Source of the DNA: Pirellulales bacterium
Lineage (GTDB): Bacteria > Planctomycetota > Planctomycetia > Pirellulales > S012-138
Assembly: GCA_028066245.1 (NCBI GenBank)
Contig: JALCBR010000049.1
Span: forward strand, 1 to 35,779
Reading direction: 5' to 3'
DNA: 35,779 bases
This document shows positions 13,330 through 31,168 of the stretch, one piece after another. The position numbers and the translations under genes were made by a program. Each line of letters starts with the position of its first letter. The first letter of the stretch is position 1. The notes below the pieces were generated by a model. The model was not told the DNA's origin. It did not search any database and worked only from the letters and a program-made list of their open reading frames with translations.

Positions 13330-14235
13330 TCAAGCTTCTAGAAATGATTCCAAATCTGCTGGATTGACCGCAGGTTCGCCTGGTGAGACGTGATCAAGCT
13401 TTCCGTCTTTCAACCAGGTCTCCAATTTGTCAACCTGGCTGAACAGGTGGTCGAAGGAATCGACAATGAACAACAGTGGCTGGTAGTGGTCGATTTCAAA
13501 GTATTGATTGACGACCCATTCCATCTGGATTGGATACCGCTGCACCGCTGGCGAAGTCAAAGAGTGTTCAAGCTCGCCTAATGAACTGAGAAGTCCGCTG
13601 CCGTATGCCTTGAGGCCATCTTTCTCGCGAATCAGCCCGAACTCGACGGTGAACCAGAAGAACCGCGCCATCGCCTTGATGTTGTTTTCCAAGCAACGGA
13701 TATGTTCAGCGTCACCTCCGGCCACCCCGGCAGCTCGCTCAGCGGCAAAACGGGCCACCTCGCCAAAGCGGACCAGGACGTCTGAAAAAACACGATCTGT
13801 GTGCATCGGCACGTGCCCGGCAACATCATGGAAGATGTCAGGTTCCGGAAGGTAGTCCAGGGCCTGCCCATCGCGAATGGTGATGGTGGTGGGAAAGCTG
13901 CGCTGCCGTAAGCAATCGAAGAACAAAAACGCAGGCACATAGCCCGAGACGGCTTTAGCCTTGAATCCACTCAGCGGCGCCAGAAAACGGTTAATGTCAT
14001 CCAGCTTCGGAATTGCATCCCGTTTTAGATGCAAGACTTCCAGCCCATGCATGAAACGCGCGTTAGCGAACTGCTCCCATTTAGGCAGGATGCGATCGTA
14101 CAAACATCGCCATGTTTCTTGGTTTTCATCGCTGTAGAGATCGTACGGTTGATCAATATACAGTTGGCCGTCTTGTTGAGCCTGTTCGATGAAAGCTGCT
14201 TTTGTTGTCGTCAAACCAGAGGCCACTGTCGACAT
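13330..14235 (-). CDS. phhA: Phenylalanine 4-monooxygenase (aromatic amino acid hydroxylase)
   Basis: Iron- and pterin-dependent enzyme converting L-phenylalanine to L-tyrosine. At 301 residues it is the compact bacterial form without a regulatory ACT domain. The 2-His-1-carboxylate iron site is readable: His136 and His141 in DIFHDVAGHVPM, and Glu198 in WFTVEFGLI. Other family blocks are YLPEPD, the GYVPAFLFFDCL region and YGSGLLSSLGELEHSL. ATG 14235 gives a normal N-terminus. Its pathway partner fumarylacetoacetase is about 14 kb away in the same window and orientation. A 10-bp palindrome (14281-14290) and two hairpins lie upstream and may be regulatory. Confidence 0.95.
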   Translation of the reverse strand: MSTVASGLTTTKAAFIEQAQQDGQLYIDQPYDLYSDENQETWRCLYDRILPKWEQFANARFMHGLEVLHLKRDAIPKLDDINRFLAPLSGFKAKAVSGYVPAFLFFDCLRQRSFPTTITIRDGQALDYLPEPDIFHDVAGHVPMHTDRVFSDVLVRFGEVARFAAERAAGVAGGDAEHIRCLENNIKAMARFFWFTVEFGLIREKDGLKAYGSGLLSSLGELEHSLTSPAVQRYPIQMEWVVNQYFEIDHYQPLLFIVDSFDHLFSQVDKLETWLKDGKLDHVSPGEPAVNPADLESFLEA

Positions 14236-23809: not shown

Positions 23810-24493
23810 TCAAATTGACTGTCCTGTGTAGATCACGAGCGAAATCCATGTGCATACAACGGCAGACAAAGCGCCAACAACTAAACTGCGCTTCCAAGAG
23901 AAATATTGCTTTCGCTCGTATAACAACAAATACATCCGCAGAGCAAAACCGCCAACAAGAAAGCTAAGCGGAATAATGTAAACAGGATTTCCTAGCACGC
24001 CTGGAGCGTAGGAGTTGATGTAAATATACCAAAGATAGTAGAGACCAAGCGTATGCAGCAAATGCCAGTTTCTCCCCAACAACTTCATTGACTTGTTGTT
24101 GGAAGTCAGAGCCAATATCCAATATGTCGCCATCCCAGAATATCCAATAATCATCTCCCGCAAAGTAAGAATTTCATCGAGAGGACGAGGGATGTTCGAA
24201 TAGGTCCATGCGACAAGCAAAATAAACACGGTTTGAGAGATCGCAGCACAGATCCCCAAATGGCGACGGTTTCGAAGCAAGAACTTACTGACGTTATGCT
24301 GCCACACCTTTGCCAACGGCCTCGCAAGGAAGGCCAAGATAAAGAATGCCAAGGCAATCCTGCTTGCAATGCGAACACGCTGCCGCATTGCAGGTTCTGA
24401 AAAATCTAAACTGGCGAAGCTAATCAGCAGGCAGCTTGTCAATAACAGTCCGCAAACAAGATATACACTTTTCGCCGAACTTTTCACGGCCAT
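23810..24493 (-). CDS. Ferric-reductase-like polytopic membrane protein (MsrQ-like)
   Basis: 227 residues with about six or seven membrane segments (about 8-28, 45-62, 79-98, 112-131, 146-160, 170-192, 202-222). The layout, the RRHLG turn before the third segment (76-80) and LGRNWHLLHTLGLYYLW before the fifth resemble the MsrQ/YedZ branch of ferric-reductase-like membrane domains, which bind heme b and feed electrons to MsrP. Only His147 appears to match a usual heme ligand; the other expected positions read Phe90 and Asn160. No msrP gene is adjacent. The gene is visibly richer in A/T than its neighbours. Heme binding is therefore doubtful, and the family call is by layout. Confidence 0.65.
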   Translation of the reverse strand: MAVKSSAKSVYLVCGLLLTSCLLISFASLDFSEPAMRQRVRIASRIALAFFILAFLARPLAKVWQHNVSKFLLRNRRHLGICAAISQTVFILLVAWTYSNIPRPLDEILTLREMIIGYSGMATYWILALTSNNKSMKLLGRNWHLLHTLGLYYLWYIYINSYAPGVLGNPVYIIPLSFLVGGFALRMYLLLYERKQYFSWKRSLVVGALSAVVCTWISLVIYTGQSI

Positions 24494-24800: not shown

Positions 24801-27800
24801 TTAGCGGAAGAAACCGACGAAGAAGCTGAAGACCTGTGTTTGGTCAGTTGCTTCCTTGTTGACGGCCCACGCAAAGTCCAGAGCAATGGGAGCTGGTCCC
24901 ATGCCGGGTACCTGAATGCGAAGGCCAGCACCAGGAGCAACACGGAAGTCGCTTCCGACAATCTTTACGCTCTCTTCCACAGTCCCCGCATCAACAAACA
25001 CGACACCGCGGAGTGCATCGTCCGCTGTGATAGGAAACAGATATTCCACGGATGAGAGCAGTAAGAATTCGCCACCAACGCGAGAAGTAACTTCAACCGG
25101 CGATGCTCCGCGAAAATCAAATCCACGCAGCGTGGAGAACCCACCAGCGAAATACTGTTCAAACGCAGGAGTTTGATTGCCAGTGATTCCCATCCGTCCA
25201 CGCAGCGCAACCACATGCCGGCCAGAACGGTCTGGCCGTTGGTGAAGTAAGAAATATTGGCGGAAGTCCGAATTGACTCGCGGGAAGTCGTACTTGCCAA
25301 AGATCTGCTCAAAGCCAACCTGCCACAAGTGCCCTTCAGTCGGCAGAAAGGAGTTATCGCGCGTATCGTGTGTCAGTTGGACACCGGCTCCCCAAATCTC
25401 ATTGTCGCCAACCATCGCCGCAACACTCGGGGCAACCGGTAGCCGCGCGTTGCGGACGTTAACGTTTTCCCCTCGCAGGCTGAAGTTGATGCTCAGATCA
25501 GGTCGCGATTGGAATTGATAGCCAAAGCCTACGGTTCCGCCAACGCGCTGCTCATCCCAGTCATCGTAGCGGCGGTCGAAGAAAAAGCCGCTCGTGCTGA
25601 AGCTAAACAACGAATCGAAGACATACGGCTCCGTGAAACTCACCATGTATCGTTGCAACTGGCTACCAGGTACGGCTTCAAAACGAAAATGCTGCCCAGC
25701 TCCGCGGAAAGCACGCCCATCCAGCACTTCGCCCATGCTGCGCGGATAGCGGCTGATGTCAAAGTTGGTTTCATCCAGAACGATATTGCCGACCACACCA
25801 GCATCCGAATTAATGCCGACACCAAAGTTGAACCGGCCAGTTTGAGTAACTTCAACCGGGATCACGATATCGGCCAGCGGATCCAGTTGAGGGGGCGTGA
25901 CTCCGCCATCGGGAAAAACCAGCCCGCCACCAGGCTGCGGGGGCACTCCGGGGAGTTCGTCAGGCCGTGGAATTGGCGGAGCGCCAAATGATGTGCCGAG
26001 GCCTTGACCGGTTGTCGCTGAACTTTGAGGGGGATTCTGCGCTCCGGATGTGAAGGGATTGGTCGTTGGAGGCGGCGAATTGGACTGGTAGCCGTAGTTA
26101 TTGGCCGGCGGCGTATAGGACGGTTGGTTTGTTGGTGCCGAGTTGAACGGCGCCTGGCCAGATTGACTGCCGCCGAATTGGCCTGCTTGCCCGTAGTAGT
26201 TTGCTGAGGGAGGCGGGTTGTCACCAGCGACAGCACTTCCGGCAAAAGATGAGCCACCAAATCCAGGACCGGAATAACGTGGCGGATTGGGGTTCGGATT
26301 GAAGCCGCCTGGCGATTGCATGCGCACCCTGGGCTGACTGTCATTGAACCCTAACCGCGGTGCGCGGTTGCCCGGACGTGGTGATCCACCGATGTTCTGC
26401 TGATAAGCTGCCACGCGAACGCTCGTGTTGGGTCGCGAACCGGCTTGATTGTGTTGATTCGAGGGTTGCTTCCACTTGAGTTGGATGTTGTTTTCCTGTG
26501 TCCACGGCGCATCGACGTACATGATGTCTCTGGCCTCATCGGGACTTTGACCTCGATACCCGGCGGGTGGTGGCGGCGGAATGCGATGCCTAGCTTGATC
26601 TGTTCTCGGAGAAAGGCCGGAATGGGCTCGCGCAGGCTGTAATTGCACAGGAACTTCTCGCGGCGGGTCCGGGCTTTGCCCGCGAGTGACTCCGCCTGAG
26701 TCTGCCACGGATTGACCATCGAACTCCTCATTGACCGGCTGCAGAATGAGTTGCGGTGCACGATCAGGAGCTGTCTCGAATAGTCCACTGGCGGCCAACC
26801 GACGTTCGCTGGCGCGAATCTGTTGGATGTTGACGATGTCGCCAGGCTGAATCGACAACCGATTCATCACGGTGCGGACATGGGTATGCAGGTTGGCTCC
26901 GCGAACTTGGACTTCAATGCGTCCGACGCGATAACGCTGTTTCTCATCAATGCGATAAACGATATCGACGCCGTTATCTGACGCGTGCTCGATGATCTCT
27001 GGCTTGACGTCGGCAAAGATATAGCCGGCCGTGCCGTAGATTTCTTGAATGCGGGCGATGTCTTCATTGAACTGCCCACGCTCGAAGTACTGCCCGCGGG
27101 TCAGCTTGAGCGCCCCGGAAATATCCTCCTGGCGAAACTTTGTCACGCCCTCGACAACCACACGGTCAACCGTTGACCGGGGGCCTTCCTGAATGTGAAA
27201 GGTGAGTGTCAACCAGCCGCGATCCTCGTCAAACTCCAGCTCGCGCCCAACACGGGCAGCGCGATACCCCAAGTCACGATAGTACTGCACAAGTTGCGAG
27301 ACATCGGCATCGATTTGATCCTGGTTGACGTAGCCGCCAAAGAGCATCAAGAAGGGCTCCTTCGAGCTGATCTTTGTTTTCAATCGCCCATCCGGCACAA
27401 TCGTGTTGCCTTCAAACTTAACGTCCCAGATTCGCTGAACGGCGCCCTCATTGAATAAGAAGACAACGCCACGATCATCCGGCTTGAGGCCTTCCATGAC
27501 TGAGACGTGAACTTCCCCCATCCCCTTACTCTTGTAGTATTCAATCAGCTTGGTGCGAGCTTCCTCGACGGTGTAGGGATCGAGCGGTTCGCCAACTTTG
27601 AGCTTTGTTTCACGAGCCAGTCGAGTATCTGATTGACGCTTGTTACCCAGATAGTGGATGTAGTTGATGGTGGGTCGCTCAACGACACGGAAGACGACTG
27701 TAACGTTGTCGCCAGTCCGCTGATATTCCGTGCTGACGTTTACAAACATCCGCGTGCGGCTCAAACGGCGAATGTCCTCACGGATGGTGTCCGGATTGAA

Positions 27801-28061
27801 AGGCCGTCCTGGGCGCGTTTTGATATACGAACGGATCTGCTCCTTGGAGAGGTCTCGGTGACCCGCGATTTGCACGTCCACAACCATCTCGCCAGGAAAC
27901 ACTTCTTCGCCGGTTGCCACATTTTGTGGAGGCGCAAACGACGGTCCACCACTCCCGCTCTGCGCTTGCACCTCGCCTGCTGCCAACACAATCAACACGA
28001 ACACGGCGCAAAGGACCGCCATGAAGCGCATTGGCAGCATGCAATGGGATGCGTCTCTCAT
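24801..28061 (-). CDS. bamA: Outer-membrane assembly factor BamA with a long low-complexity insert
   Basis: About 1086 residues, against about 800 in the usual family. Core of the machine inserting beta-barrel proteins into the outer membrane. A signal peptide (hydrophobic stretch ending EVQAQSG) is followed by five POTRA-like repeats (about 60-440). The C-terminal 16-strand barrel occupies about 732-1086, with FTEPYVF and the LRGF lid motif in GGFSTLRGFDF. Between them sits a segment of about 290 residues (440-729; DNA 25875-26744) rich in Pro, Gly, Asn, Gln and Ser. It appears to interrupt the fifth POTRA between its last two strands. The last residues are FFVGFFR, one Arg past the usual terminal Phe. 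Start options are ATG 28091, 28061, 28040 and 28031; 28061 is used. Confidence 0.93.
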   Translation of the reverse strand: MRDASHCMLPMRFMAVLCAVFVLIVLAAGEVQAQSGSGGPSFAPPQNVATGEEVFPGEMVVDVQIAGHRDLSKEQIRSYIKTRPGRPFNPDTIREDIRRLSRTRMFVNVSTEYQRTGDNVTVVFRVVERPTINYIHYLGNKRQSDTRLARETKLKVGEPLDPYTVEEARTKLIEYYKSKGMGEVHVSVMEGLKPDDRGVVFLFNEGAVQRIWDVKFEGNTIVPDGRLKTKISSKEPFLMLFGGYVNQDQIDADVSQLVQYYRDLGYRAARVGRELEFDEDRGWLTLTFHIQEGPRSTVDRVVVEGVTKFRQEDISGALKLTRGQYFERGQFNEDIARIQEIYGTAGYIFADVKPEIIEHASDNGVDIVYRIDEKQRYRVGRIEVQVRGANLHTHVRTVMNRLSIQPGDIVNIQQIRASERRLAASGLFETAPDRAPQLILQPVNEEFDGQSVADSGGVTRGQSPDPPREVPVQLQPARAHSGLSPRTDQARHRIPPPPPAGYRGQSPDEARDIMYVDAPWTQENNIQLKWKQPSNQHNQAGSRPNTSVRVAAYQQNIGGSPRPGNRAPRLGFNDSQPRVRMQSPGGFNPNPNPPRYSGPGFGGSSFAGSAVAGDNPPPSANYYGQAGQFGGSQSGQAPFNSAPTNQPSYTPPANNYGYQSNSPPPTTNPFTSGAQNPPQSSATTGQGLGTSFGAPPIPRPDELPGVPPQPGGGLVFPDGGVTPPQLDPLADIVIPVEVTQTGRFNFGVGINSDAGVVGNIVLDETNFDISRYPRSMGEVLDGRAFRGAGQHFRFEAVPGSQLQRYMVSFTEPYVFDSLFSFSTSGFFFDRRYDDWDEQRVGGTVGFGYQFQSRPDLSINFSLRGENVNVRNARLPVAPSVAAMVGDNEIWGAGVQLTHDTRDNSFLPTEGHLWQVGFEQIFGKYDFPRVNSDFRQYFLLHQRPDRSGRHVVALRGRMGITGNQTPAFEQYFAGGFSTLRGFDFRGASPVEVTSRVGGEFLLLSSVEYLFPITADDALRGVVFVDAGTVEESVKIVGSDFRVAPGAGLRIQVPGMGPAPIALDFAWAVNKEATDQTQVFSFFVGFFR

Positions 28062-28408
28062 AATCGCCTGTTGACAGCGAAGGGTGTTCATCAGCAGGAA
28101 TGCACGCAAACAGCGTTGCTCACTGGGTTTTTGCTATGTGGCCGGGCGCGCACGGTCCGAGCACGCACAGCAGTCGAACGGAAGGCGGCGTAGAGATATC
28201 GAAACCCGTCGCGCATCGCAAGGCGAGTTGCGAATTTACTGAGAATCCGCCGGCGTTCTCGCGTATTTTCCTGTCGCTCTGTGAGCTTGCTTGCGCAGTG
28301 TGATGGTTGCGATGGCGAAGCAAGCTGGCAGTGTCGCTATCAGAGATTCCGCCCAGCAGATGGCGCGGCTTGAGTTCAACAACGCATCACGAAGAAACAT
28401 GAGCCGCG
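28062..28408. other. Intergenic region between fahA and bamA
   Basis: About 300-350 bp, no gene seen. It contains one perfect 6-bp hairpin (TCGCAA-GGCGAG-TTGCGA, 28216-28233). The bamA promoter is expected here but could not be assigned. Confidence 0.35.
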
Positions 28409-29689
28409 TCAGGCTCTTGCTGGAAGCACGCACCCGCTTACGGAACCAAAGCCGACACGACATCCCTTTGCCTCGCACGACCCGCTGAGTGAAACAACAT
28501 CACCGTCGCTCAAGAATTTGCGTTGCGAACCGTCAGAAAGCTTGATCGGCTCCGCGCCGCGCCAAGTAAGCTCCAGCATGCTCCCACGAGCGGATTTCTC
28601 CGGACCACTAATCGTGCCAGATGCTAGCAAGTCCCCCGGGCGCAGGTTGCAACCGGTGATGGTGTGATGCGCGATTTGCTGAGCCATCGACCAATACAGA
28701 TAGCGAAAGTTGGAGCGACAGACGATATCTCCGCTGGACGTGCCTGCACCCTGAATCGCAACGGTCAATGGAATGTCGAAGGTCGACTGAGAACTTCCCT
28801 GCAAGTACGGAAGTGGCTCCGGATCCTGTGGAGGGCTTGCCGTGCGGAATGGTTCCAAGGCATCCAACGTCACCACCCATGGAGAAATCGACGTGGCAAA
28901 GTTCTTCGACAGGAACGGCCCGAGAGGAACATACTCCCACGTTTGAATGTCACGGGCACTCCAGTCATTAACTAAAACCAGGCCAAAAATATGATCCTCA
29001 GCACTGTGAACAGAGACGGGCTCGCCCAGCGAACTGCCAGGGCCGATGAAGAATCCCATCTCCAGCTCAAAATCGAGCGCTGCGGAAGGCCCAAATCCCG
29101 GCTTCCCGTCATCGCCTGGCTTTTTTTGACCAACAGGCCGTGTCACGTCCGTTCCATCAATGACGATCGAACTTGCACGACCGTGATAGGCGACCGGCAA
29201 GTGCAGCCAGTTTGGCTGCAGCGCGTTGTCCGCTCCGCGAATGATCGTTCCCACGTTTGTGGCGTGCTCGCGTGACGAATAAAAATCCGTGTAGTCGCCA
29301 ATGGAGGCAGGCACGCGCATCGAGACATCAGCCTGTCGCACAAGCGCGGCGCTGCGCAACTCGGCATTGTCACGCAATGTCGGGTTCTCAGCCGACAGCA
29401 ACTCCGCCGTCCGGCGCCGCACAGCTTCCCAGGCTTCGCGCCCCAGCGCCATGAAGTCATTTAAGATGGGCCGTTCCAATGGCCGGCCTTCCCGCAACTC
29501 TGGCAAGTCAAACTGCCCTCGGCGGCTCAACTCGCAAAGATCGAGCACCTGCTCACCGATGGCAACGCCGATGTGGTCTTCGCTCGCGCCAACCTGAGAG
29601 AACACACCATATGGCAGGTTTTGCAAGGGGAAGTCAGAATCCTCCGCGACAGGAACAAAGCTGCGGAGTTGGGAATCAATGACGTACAT
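28409..29689 (-). CDS. fahA: Fumarylacetoacetase
   Basis: 426 residues. Hydrolyses fumarylacetoacetate to fumarate and acetoacetate, the last step of tyrosine degradation. The active-site elements are readable: DYTDFYSSREHATNVG (metal Asp and catalytic His), ELEMGFFIG (two metal Glu), VNDWSARDIQTWEYVPLGPF (metal Asp and the downstream loop), and the C-terminal SDGDVVSLSG followed by VGFGSVSGCVLPA. The N-terminal SH3-like domain (about 1-115) is also present, so this is the full-length eukaryote-like FAH rather than a short FAH-fold hydrolase. ATG 29689 gives the normal N-terminus. Homogentisate dioxygenase and hydroxyphenylpyruvate dioxygenase are not adjacent. Confidence 0.96.
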   Translation of the reverse strand: MYVIDSQLRSFVPVAEDSDFPLQNLPYGVFSQVGASEDHIGVAIGEQVLDLCELSRRGQFDLPELREGRPLERPILNDFMALGREAWEAVRRRTAELLSAENPTLRDNAELRSAALVRQADVSMRVPASIGDYTDFYSSREHATNVGTIIRGADNALQPNWLHLPVAYHGRASSIVIDGTDVTRPVGQKKPGDDGKPGFGPSAALDFELEMGFFIGPGSSLGEPVSVHSAEDHIFGLVLVNDWSARDIQTWEYVPLGPFLSKNFATSISPWVVTLDALEPFRTASPPQDPEPLPYLQGSSQSTFDIPLTVAIQGAGTSSGDIVCRSNFRYLYWSMAQQIAHHTITGCNLRPGDLLASGTISGPEKSARGSMLELTWRGAEPIKLSDGSQRKFLSDGDVVSLSGSCEAKGCRVGFGSVSGCVLPARA

Positions 29690-30016
29690 TCAGCTGACCT
29701 GTCTTTTGAGTTGCGGTCCCGGGGACCACGTAGCGCTGGCAAGGGCCTTACCCGTGAATTGATCAAACAGATGGGGTATCGCAGTTCGTTTATAAGGTCA
29801 CGCAGTCGCTATGTAAAAGGGCCAGGCGTTGCAAGCTCACCGTCAAACAGCGTGCATTCAGTGATTGCTCCAGCGCTTCCAGGCTTTGTAACGAATATGT
29901 GGCCAGTTTCGAGTCGGATTCATAGCAGCTTGGGGGGAGTTGATTGCCTTGGCTGAGGTTGGGTGCTACATGCTCTGTGGACAATCGTTGCAACCATCCC
30001 CTGCGGACTTCCTGTC
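29690..30016. promoter_or_regulatory. Divergent intergenic region fahA / membrane protein
   Basis: About 327 bp between divergent starts. No operator-like palindrome, riboswitch or coding region was recognised. Open frames here lie antisense to fahA or run out without motif. Confidence 0.35.
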
Positions 30017-31168
30017 ATGACTTCCTCGCTCGTCCCTGAGCGCGAACTCATCGATCGCGCGGATCCACCTGTGCACACTCAAGATGCATTGGACAAGCGT
30101 GAGACGTCGCTTGATTCCAGTTCACAGGACACCGCGCAGCCGGCCAGCACGCAACCCGACACCGCGCCAGCGCAATCGAAGCCAACCACCAAGCCGTGGC
30201 TGTTGAATGGCCCGTTGGATTTGCTGTTTGTCGCCAATATCGCCTGGCCGGTGGTTGCCATCTTCACGGCGTTGTTCGCGACTTCGGCAGCCAACCAAGC
30301 GTTTGGTTTTCTGCTGGTTTATTTCGTGATCATGCCACATCGGTGGATCACGTTGCCGCTTGTCTTTGCCGACGGCGAGAAATTCTCGCAACGCCCGGTC
30401 GCGTACCTGGCGGTTTTCGCCGGGGTGGTGCTCCTTTGCTCGACAATCAAGTTGAGCATGGAATCATTGGCAATGCTGGTCGCCATTGACTATGTCTGGA
30501 ATGCGTGGCACTTTGCGGCGCAGCACGGTGGCATCTTCCGGATCTACTGCGTCGCGACGCCTGAAGGTCGCAAGAGCAGCGGGCGATTGGAAAAACACCT
30601 GCTGCGAGCGTTCTTTCTGTTTACGCTGTTGCGGTTGACCGGCTTGTTTTTCCCGCCAGGCAGCGAAGGCTGGCTCAGTTGGGCCACGGCAATCGGACCC
30701 TATCTTGCCTGGCTAGACTTCGCGGCGTTGGCGATTCCGGGGTTCTTGCTGCTGCGAGAAGTGATCTCCTACAAGCCGGGGCACTTTGGTCGCCTGGTTT
30801 ATCTGTTGAGCATTTGTTCGCTGTATGCCACGCTCTTGCTGGCCATCCGATACGACTTGCGGAGCTTGATCATTGGCTGTGCCGCGGCAACGACGTTAGT
30901 CCATTCCAGCGAGTATCTGGCGATTGTGAGTTGGTATGCACCCAAGCGAGGGGGCTTTGCCAAATCGCGAGTTTGGGGACCAATGGTTCGCCATTGGGGC
31001 GTAACGCTCGTGGCGTTCATGAGCGTTTTCGCGATCAGCGCCTACTTCCTTCGCAACAGTCAACACCTGCCACTATGGCTGTGGATCAACGTCAACGTAT
31101 CGCTCCTGCACTATGCCTATGACGGTATGATCTGGAAGCGACCTAAGAAGAAGCCCGCGGCAGCGTAG
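30017..31168 (+). CDS. Polytopic membrane protein with conserved-looking His motifs
   Basis: About 383 residues, unknown family. The first 60 residues are hydrophilic (Thr/Gln/Pro/Ser-rich). Then come about eight hydrophobic segments, beginning LDLLFVANIAWPVVAIFTALF. His-containing motifs lie at segment edges: VIMPHRWITLP, NAWHFAAQHGGIFRIY, VHSSEYLAIVSWY and LLHYAYDGMIWKRP near the C-terminus. Clustered His, Tyr and Trp at membrane boundaries is typical of metal- or heme-dependent membrane enzymes, but I cannot name one. The basic tail KRPKKKPAAA is probably cytoplasmic. ATG 30017 (MTSSLVPERE) is preferred to an in-frame GTG at 29963. Confidence 0.75.
   Translation: MTSSLVPERELIDRADPPVHTQDALDKRETSLDSSSQDTAQPASTQPDTAPAQSKPTTKPWLLNGPLDLLFVANIAWPVVAIFTALFATSAANQAFGFLLVYFVIMPHRWITLPLVFADGEKFSQRPVAYLAVFAGVVLLCSTIKLSMESLAMLVAIDYVWNAWHFAAQHGGIFRIYCVATPEGRKSSGRLEKHLLRAFFLFTLLRLTGLFFPPGSEGWLSWATAIGPYLAWLDFAALAIPGFLLLREVISYKPGHFGRLVYLLSICSLYATLLLAIRYDLRSLIIGCAAATTLVHSSEYLAIVSWYAPKRGGFAKSRVWGPMVRHWGVTLVAFMSVFAISAYFLRNSQHLPLWLWINVNVSLLHYAYDGMIWKRPKKKPAAA

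Follow-up and report, generated by a model that had tools for sequence, protein, structure and literature searches.

Does the fifth POTRA domain of BamA have to be one continuous chain? BamA is the central protein of outer-membrane assembly in diderm bacteria. Its canonical form, as in Escherichia coli, Neisseria and Salmonella, consists of five POTRA domains and an Omp85 barrel with an LRGF motif. The window that we analysed, a stretch of 35,779 nucleotides from a member of the planctomycete order Pirellulales (the order that includes Pirellula and Blastopirellula), encodes a protein with these same features. Where E. coli BamA has a short hairpin between strands beta2 and beta3 of POTRA5, however, the window protein carries 286 inserted residues, and in relatives the gene is cut at that place (Table 1).

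Pfam recognises five POTRA stretches (4e-54) and Omp85 (9e-48) in the window protein, and the TIGR03303 BamA equivalog scores 379 bits against a cut-off of 297. The fold match of its model to known BamA runs from POTRA1 to the barrel, and the barrel matches solved BamA barrels with a Z of about 27, in agreement with a preliminary description of the locus, which had named a planctomycete BamA with five POTRAs and a barrel. The protein has the fused form, a single 1102-codon frame covering both POTRAs and barrel; as the single PF01103 match and only Omp85 of the 4.94 Mb genome, it is presumed to be the essential assembly factor. Its leader (LCAVFVLIVLAAGEVQAQSG) is hydrophobic and has no lipobox cysteine at its end, and the protein is predicted to be non-lipidated.

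Table 1. Features of the bamA locus (positions in the window; residues of the longest frame)
Feature	Position	Strand	Residues	Basis or remark
bamA	24801..28109	-		longest frame, 1102 aa; ATG near 28061, or a Met after it, is the likely start; signal peptide follows
POTRA1-4 and POTRA5 up to beta2	26733..27884	-	76-459	Pfam POTRA (five stretches), AlphaFold2
POTRA5 strand beta2	26736..26747	-	455-458	AlphaFold2, strand E380-383 of the model
Pro/Gly/Gln/Ser/Asn-rich insert, predicted disordered	25878..26735	-	459-744	286 aa; gene split of relatives falls here
RGQSPD copy 1	26667..26684	-	476-481	RGQSP conserved in 84/134 loci
RGQSPD copy 2	26538..26555	-	519-524	
POTRA5 strand beta3 (LADIVIPVEV)	25848..25877	-	745-754	continuous with barrel; AlphaFold2, strand E670-679
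Omp85 transmembrane barrel with LRGF motif	24804..25841	-	757-1102	Pfam Omp85

The insert is real and lies inside POTRA5. In an AlphaFold2 model built from a 41-row alignment, residues 463-731 have a pLDDT below 50 and no secondary structure, and the insert is flanked by one strand at 455-458 and another at 745-754, the latter entering the barrel. When the insert is deleted, POTRA5 aligns by phmmer with E. coli and Salmonella BamA across the hairpin, with a difference of 2 residues. The flanking strands and this nearly gap-free alignment together place the insert between beta2 and beta3, and rule out both a barrel loop and a domain boundary as its site. They also uphold what had been proposed for the locus: an insert between these two strands, absent as a large element from Proteobacteria, with limits (25875-26744) that prove correct within a few residues. 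The disorder proposed with it agrees with the low pLDDT, and the insert is disordered by prediction. Proline makes up 18% of it, glycine 13%, serine 10%, glutamine 9% and asparagine 7%; cysteine is lacking. Between close relatives, the corresponding linkers show dN/dS (or pn/ps) values of 0.14-0.45, a looser constraint than that on the POTRA (0.03-0.21) and barrel (0.01-0.13) parts of fused pairs. These values rule out a chance open frame in low-complexity DNA, against which the presence of a linker at the same place of POTRA5 in 43 order-mates also speaks.

Linker length varies with lineage. It ranges from 128 to 514 aa (median 270) in fused members of Pirellulales (n=43) and from 73 to 240 aa in a sister order (n=9, measured likewise), where frame lengths of 885-1206 aa in 60 genomes are consistent with the linker measurements; in other planctomycete classes it is mostly 15-46 aa. 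Homologs thus do not share one linker length across phyla, and on these comparisons the long POTRA5 loop is a trait of the lineage. The position of the linker is fixed across relatives while its length and sequence vary, apart from an RGQSP motif, as expected from the preliminary description of a constant site with variable sequence. Some BamA proteins of other planctomycete classes (L072, L080, L088 of group f22, and L091) are extended at the N-terminus, with about 210-580 aa preceding the first POTRA that is recognised, and Omp85 proteins of about 1060-1100 aa in group f38 (L081, L083, L087) have a POTRA part that is barely or not matched by the POTRA sequence of the window protein.

In many relatives, bamA is divided inside the POTRA5 loop into two adjacent genes. 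POTRA and barrel parts lay in separate frames in 7 of the roughly 40 order-mates first fetched; among 74 named genome loci with both parts, 57 were split and 17 fused, in a sample skewed by the use of a split query. Split loci include those of Blastopirellula marina DSM 3645, Roseimaritima sediminicola, Ca. Laterigemmans baculatus, and Rhodopirellula and Pirellula MAGs. We examined 82 split loci in detail and found further splits beyond these. The family of Blastopirellula (group f15), which we take to be Pirellulaceae, has its barrel in a frame of at most 720 aa in all 134 genomes with a full-length barrel, 20 of them single-contig genomes. Such a frame is too short for POTRAs and barrel together, so bamA is split in all of these; the genomes searched have one POTRA gene, directly upstream of the barrel gene wherever contigs allow. 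Further splits occur in families f3, f4, f5, f9 and part of f17, and the sister order has bamA in one frame in 60/60 genomes. Genomes with a split pair generally have no other Omp85. Five genomes combine a single POTRA gene with two tandem, diverged barrel genes (L199, L200, L201, L202, genus g203; L203, G491), one copy being a predicted lipoprotein and the second shorter, with an ordinary or unclear leader. Genome G026 has two different split bamA pairs on two contigs (L181, L182); its contamination is 6% and a mixture is possible.

The two genes of a pair divide the protein as follows. The upstream product comprises POTRA1-4 and POTRA5 up to beta2, and extends beyond the last POTRA5 helix by 18 to more than 100 aa; in 28 of the 82 POTRA proteins this extension is at most 36 aa and stops past beta2, before any third strand. 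The downstream product comprises its own signal peptide, a presumably disordered linker of 115-339 aa, a retained beta3-like strand before a TGR motif, and the barrel. All 82 downstream proteins have a hydrophobic leader (median hydropathy 2.2 versus 0.95 in fused linkers), which in 66 carries a lipobox (65 by pattern, plus L177 with TGC) and in the remainder resembles an ordinary signal peptide. In E. coli, a residue other than Asp after the lipobox cysteine directs sorting to the outer membrane; Asp occupies this position in none of the 65 scored. The nearest plausible start of the barrel gene lies between -11 and +174 nt from the upstream stop, and exactly at -4 in 16 loci, so both genes are probably translated from one message.

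Could BamA still be produced as one chain, the pairs being assembly errors, frameshifted pseudogenes, or genes joined by readthrough or programmed frameshifting? Readthrough is conceivable where the two genes share a frame after the stop codon, as in 22 of the 64 loci first tested, but frame relations of 0, +1 and +2 are evenly spread (22, 23 and 19 loci). This randomness and the separate leaders, mostly with a lipobox, rule out a programmed frameshift. Where calculable, dN/dS in split pairs is 0.01-0.07 for POTRA and 0.01-0.07 for barrel parts (pn/ps up to 0.09), values that place both halves under strong purifying selection. Together with the split in the 20 single-contig genomes, and in every testable Pirellulaceae genome, this selection rules out assembly errors and pseudogenes. 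The duplication of the barrel gene alone in five genomes, and the usual standing of the pair as sole Omp85, also speak against this explanation. We find it as a whole scarcely credible.

We propose that, in this planctomycete class, a long disordered linker opened the beta2-beta3 hairpin of POTRA5. POTRA arm and barrel would then be two folding units, held by a flexible tether and by beta3, which would belong to the barrel side and dock into the POTRA5 sheet. As the fold would not depend on an unbroken chain at the loop, a cut in the gene at this point could be tolerated. Adjacent genes in Pirellulaceae and several further families of the order would then encode BamA as two proteins, which would reassemble as beta3 of the barrel chain complements POTRA5, perhaps with help from the lipid anchor and the RGQSP motifs. 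The window protein would represent tethered docking and the two reassembling chains its untethered counterpart. We think it likely that POTRA5 is completed by beta3 of the barrel chain, tethered in the window protein and supplied by a separate protein in Pirellulaceae. Two observations favour complementation: split barrel proteins retain the strand before TGR, and the 28 shortest POTRA proteins have room for beta2 only.

Alternatively, POTRA5 of the upstream protein might be completed by a third strand of its own after RGQSPD, with the barrel joined via the linker, the motif or other partners. An AlphaFold2 model of the L102 POTRA protein (L102:2923-4254) does place a strand at 429-437 (RYMVLDVYA region), and similar LDV segments follow RGQSPD in L095, L099, L120, L123, L124, L112, L166 and others; in such lineages POTRA5 may be complete without the strand of the barrel. 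Confidence in the modelled strand is, however, modest (pLDDT about 60), at least 28 of the 82 POTRA proteins end before any such surrogate, and the split proteins keep the barrel-side beta3. As a general account we judge a surrogate strand quite improbable, and retain complementation by the barrel chain.

A further question is whether the linker has a function of its own. Of 134 loci, 84 have RGQSP within the linker; shuffled linkers give a mean of 0.2. The first copy lies about 20-35 aa past beta2, and a second often follows further on as VVRGQ or IIRAQ. Among the 82 split loci, the motif is present in the POTRA protein in 48, in the barrel protein in 43 and in both in 29. RGQSPD was rejected as a genome-wide motif: a DNA pattern search of the window genome found exact copies solely at the two sites in bamA, its three other matches not reading RGQSPD. 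Because RGQSP is conserved, the linker may have a partner, and we conjecture that the motif could be a binding site for the other half of the protein or for a shared partner.

The linker could also act chiefly as a spacer across the periplasm, or as a binding element for peptidoglycan or a phylum-specific partner, and its place in POTRA5 would then be incidental. In favour, it is long, Pro-rich and variable in length, and a binding site is suggested by the conserved motif, of which there are often two copies. Yet no peptidoglycan-binding or other known domain was found by Pfam in the linker of the window protein, a result that leaves the earlier suggestion of contact with peptidoglycan unsupported. 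Moreover, once the gene is split each protein receives part of the linker, so that it can no longer serve as a simple spacer, and RGQSP is missing from several lineages such as Pirellula. We regard a spacer or binding role as the main function as doubtful, though less so than a surrogate strand. BamD contacts POTRA5 of BamA, and this contact had been invoked for the loop. In the window genome we found no clear BamD, only scattered weak TPR-like matches to PF13525 (matches in related genomes are also weak); a planctomycete of another class gave a BamD match at 8e-26. The BamD argument thus lacks a firm basis in the window organism.

The history of splitting was traced on a tree built by a quick method from 96 sequences, each joining POTRA and barrel parts, with the sister order as root. 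About five changes between split and fused are required on it, three of them forced by well-supported branches. The fused state is found in the sister order and in the deepest branch of Pirellulales, so the fused, long-linker form is probably ancestral. The number of origins of the split is uncertain; the splits could in part reflect one split followed by re-fusions.

Extended to the whole complex, docking by complementation would make Pirellulaceae BamA a two-subunit machine. A free periplasmic POTRA arm would dock onto a lipid-anchored barrel through POTRA5 strand complementation, arms and barrels would be exchangeable, with one arm serving two barrels in some species, and the window protein would be the tethered form. 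We give this fuller picture an even chance. Its components have partial parallels. Omp85 forms without POTRA domains exist in plastids. Omp85 proteins of the 'noNterm' type likewise have a barrel without an N-terminal domain (PMC4104836). Split barrel proteins resemble both in lacking POTRAs, but split BamA has its POTRA arm in the adjacent gene, a true BamA barrel and, usually, no other Omp85 in the genome. In the Omp85 lipoproteins TamL and the 'Lipo' subfamily, a single chain runs from the lipid through three POTRAs to the barrel (Heinz and Lithgow 2014, PMC4104836); they share the lipid-anchored barrel predicted for most split barrel proteins, whose chain, however, has no POTRA, these domains forming a separate protein. 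The window protein falls outside the TamL/Lipo definition, with five POTRAs rather than three and no lipobox. BAM hinge variants of E. coli (PDB 9h84, 9h85, 9h89) have, judging by entry titles, extra residues near the BamA POTRAs, but these are engineered and few (GSGS, LVPR), whereas the window insert is natural, hundreds of residues long and inside the POTRA5 hairpin.

A BamA naturally cut within its barrel-proximal POTRA in a cultivated family, with a sister set carrying a 300-residue loop, would make testable the need for covalent coupling between POTRA arm and barrel, the way motion passes from POTRA5 to the gate, and the mixing of arms and barrels. We know of no BamA that is other than one chain, and our searches of the open literature turned up no account of a BamA made as two proteins. 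Speth et al. 2012 (PMC3422733) include Pirellula staleyi and Blastopirellula marina in their list of BamA accessions, and the part of that article considered here makes no mention of a split. Annotation is affected too: genomes with the split gene would be misread by a search that expects a single long bamA.

Near bamA, the window has two open frames without a Pfam match, one at 23810-24493 (-) with the look of a multi-pass membrane protein and one at 29963-31168 (+). The same window encodes a biopterin-dependent aromatic amino acid hydroxylase (13330-14235, -) and a fumarylacetoacetase (28409-29689, -).
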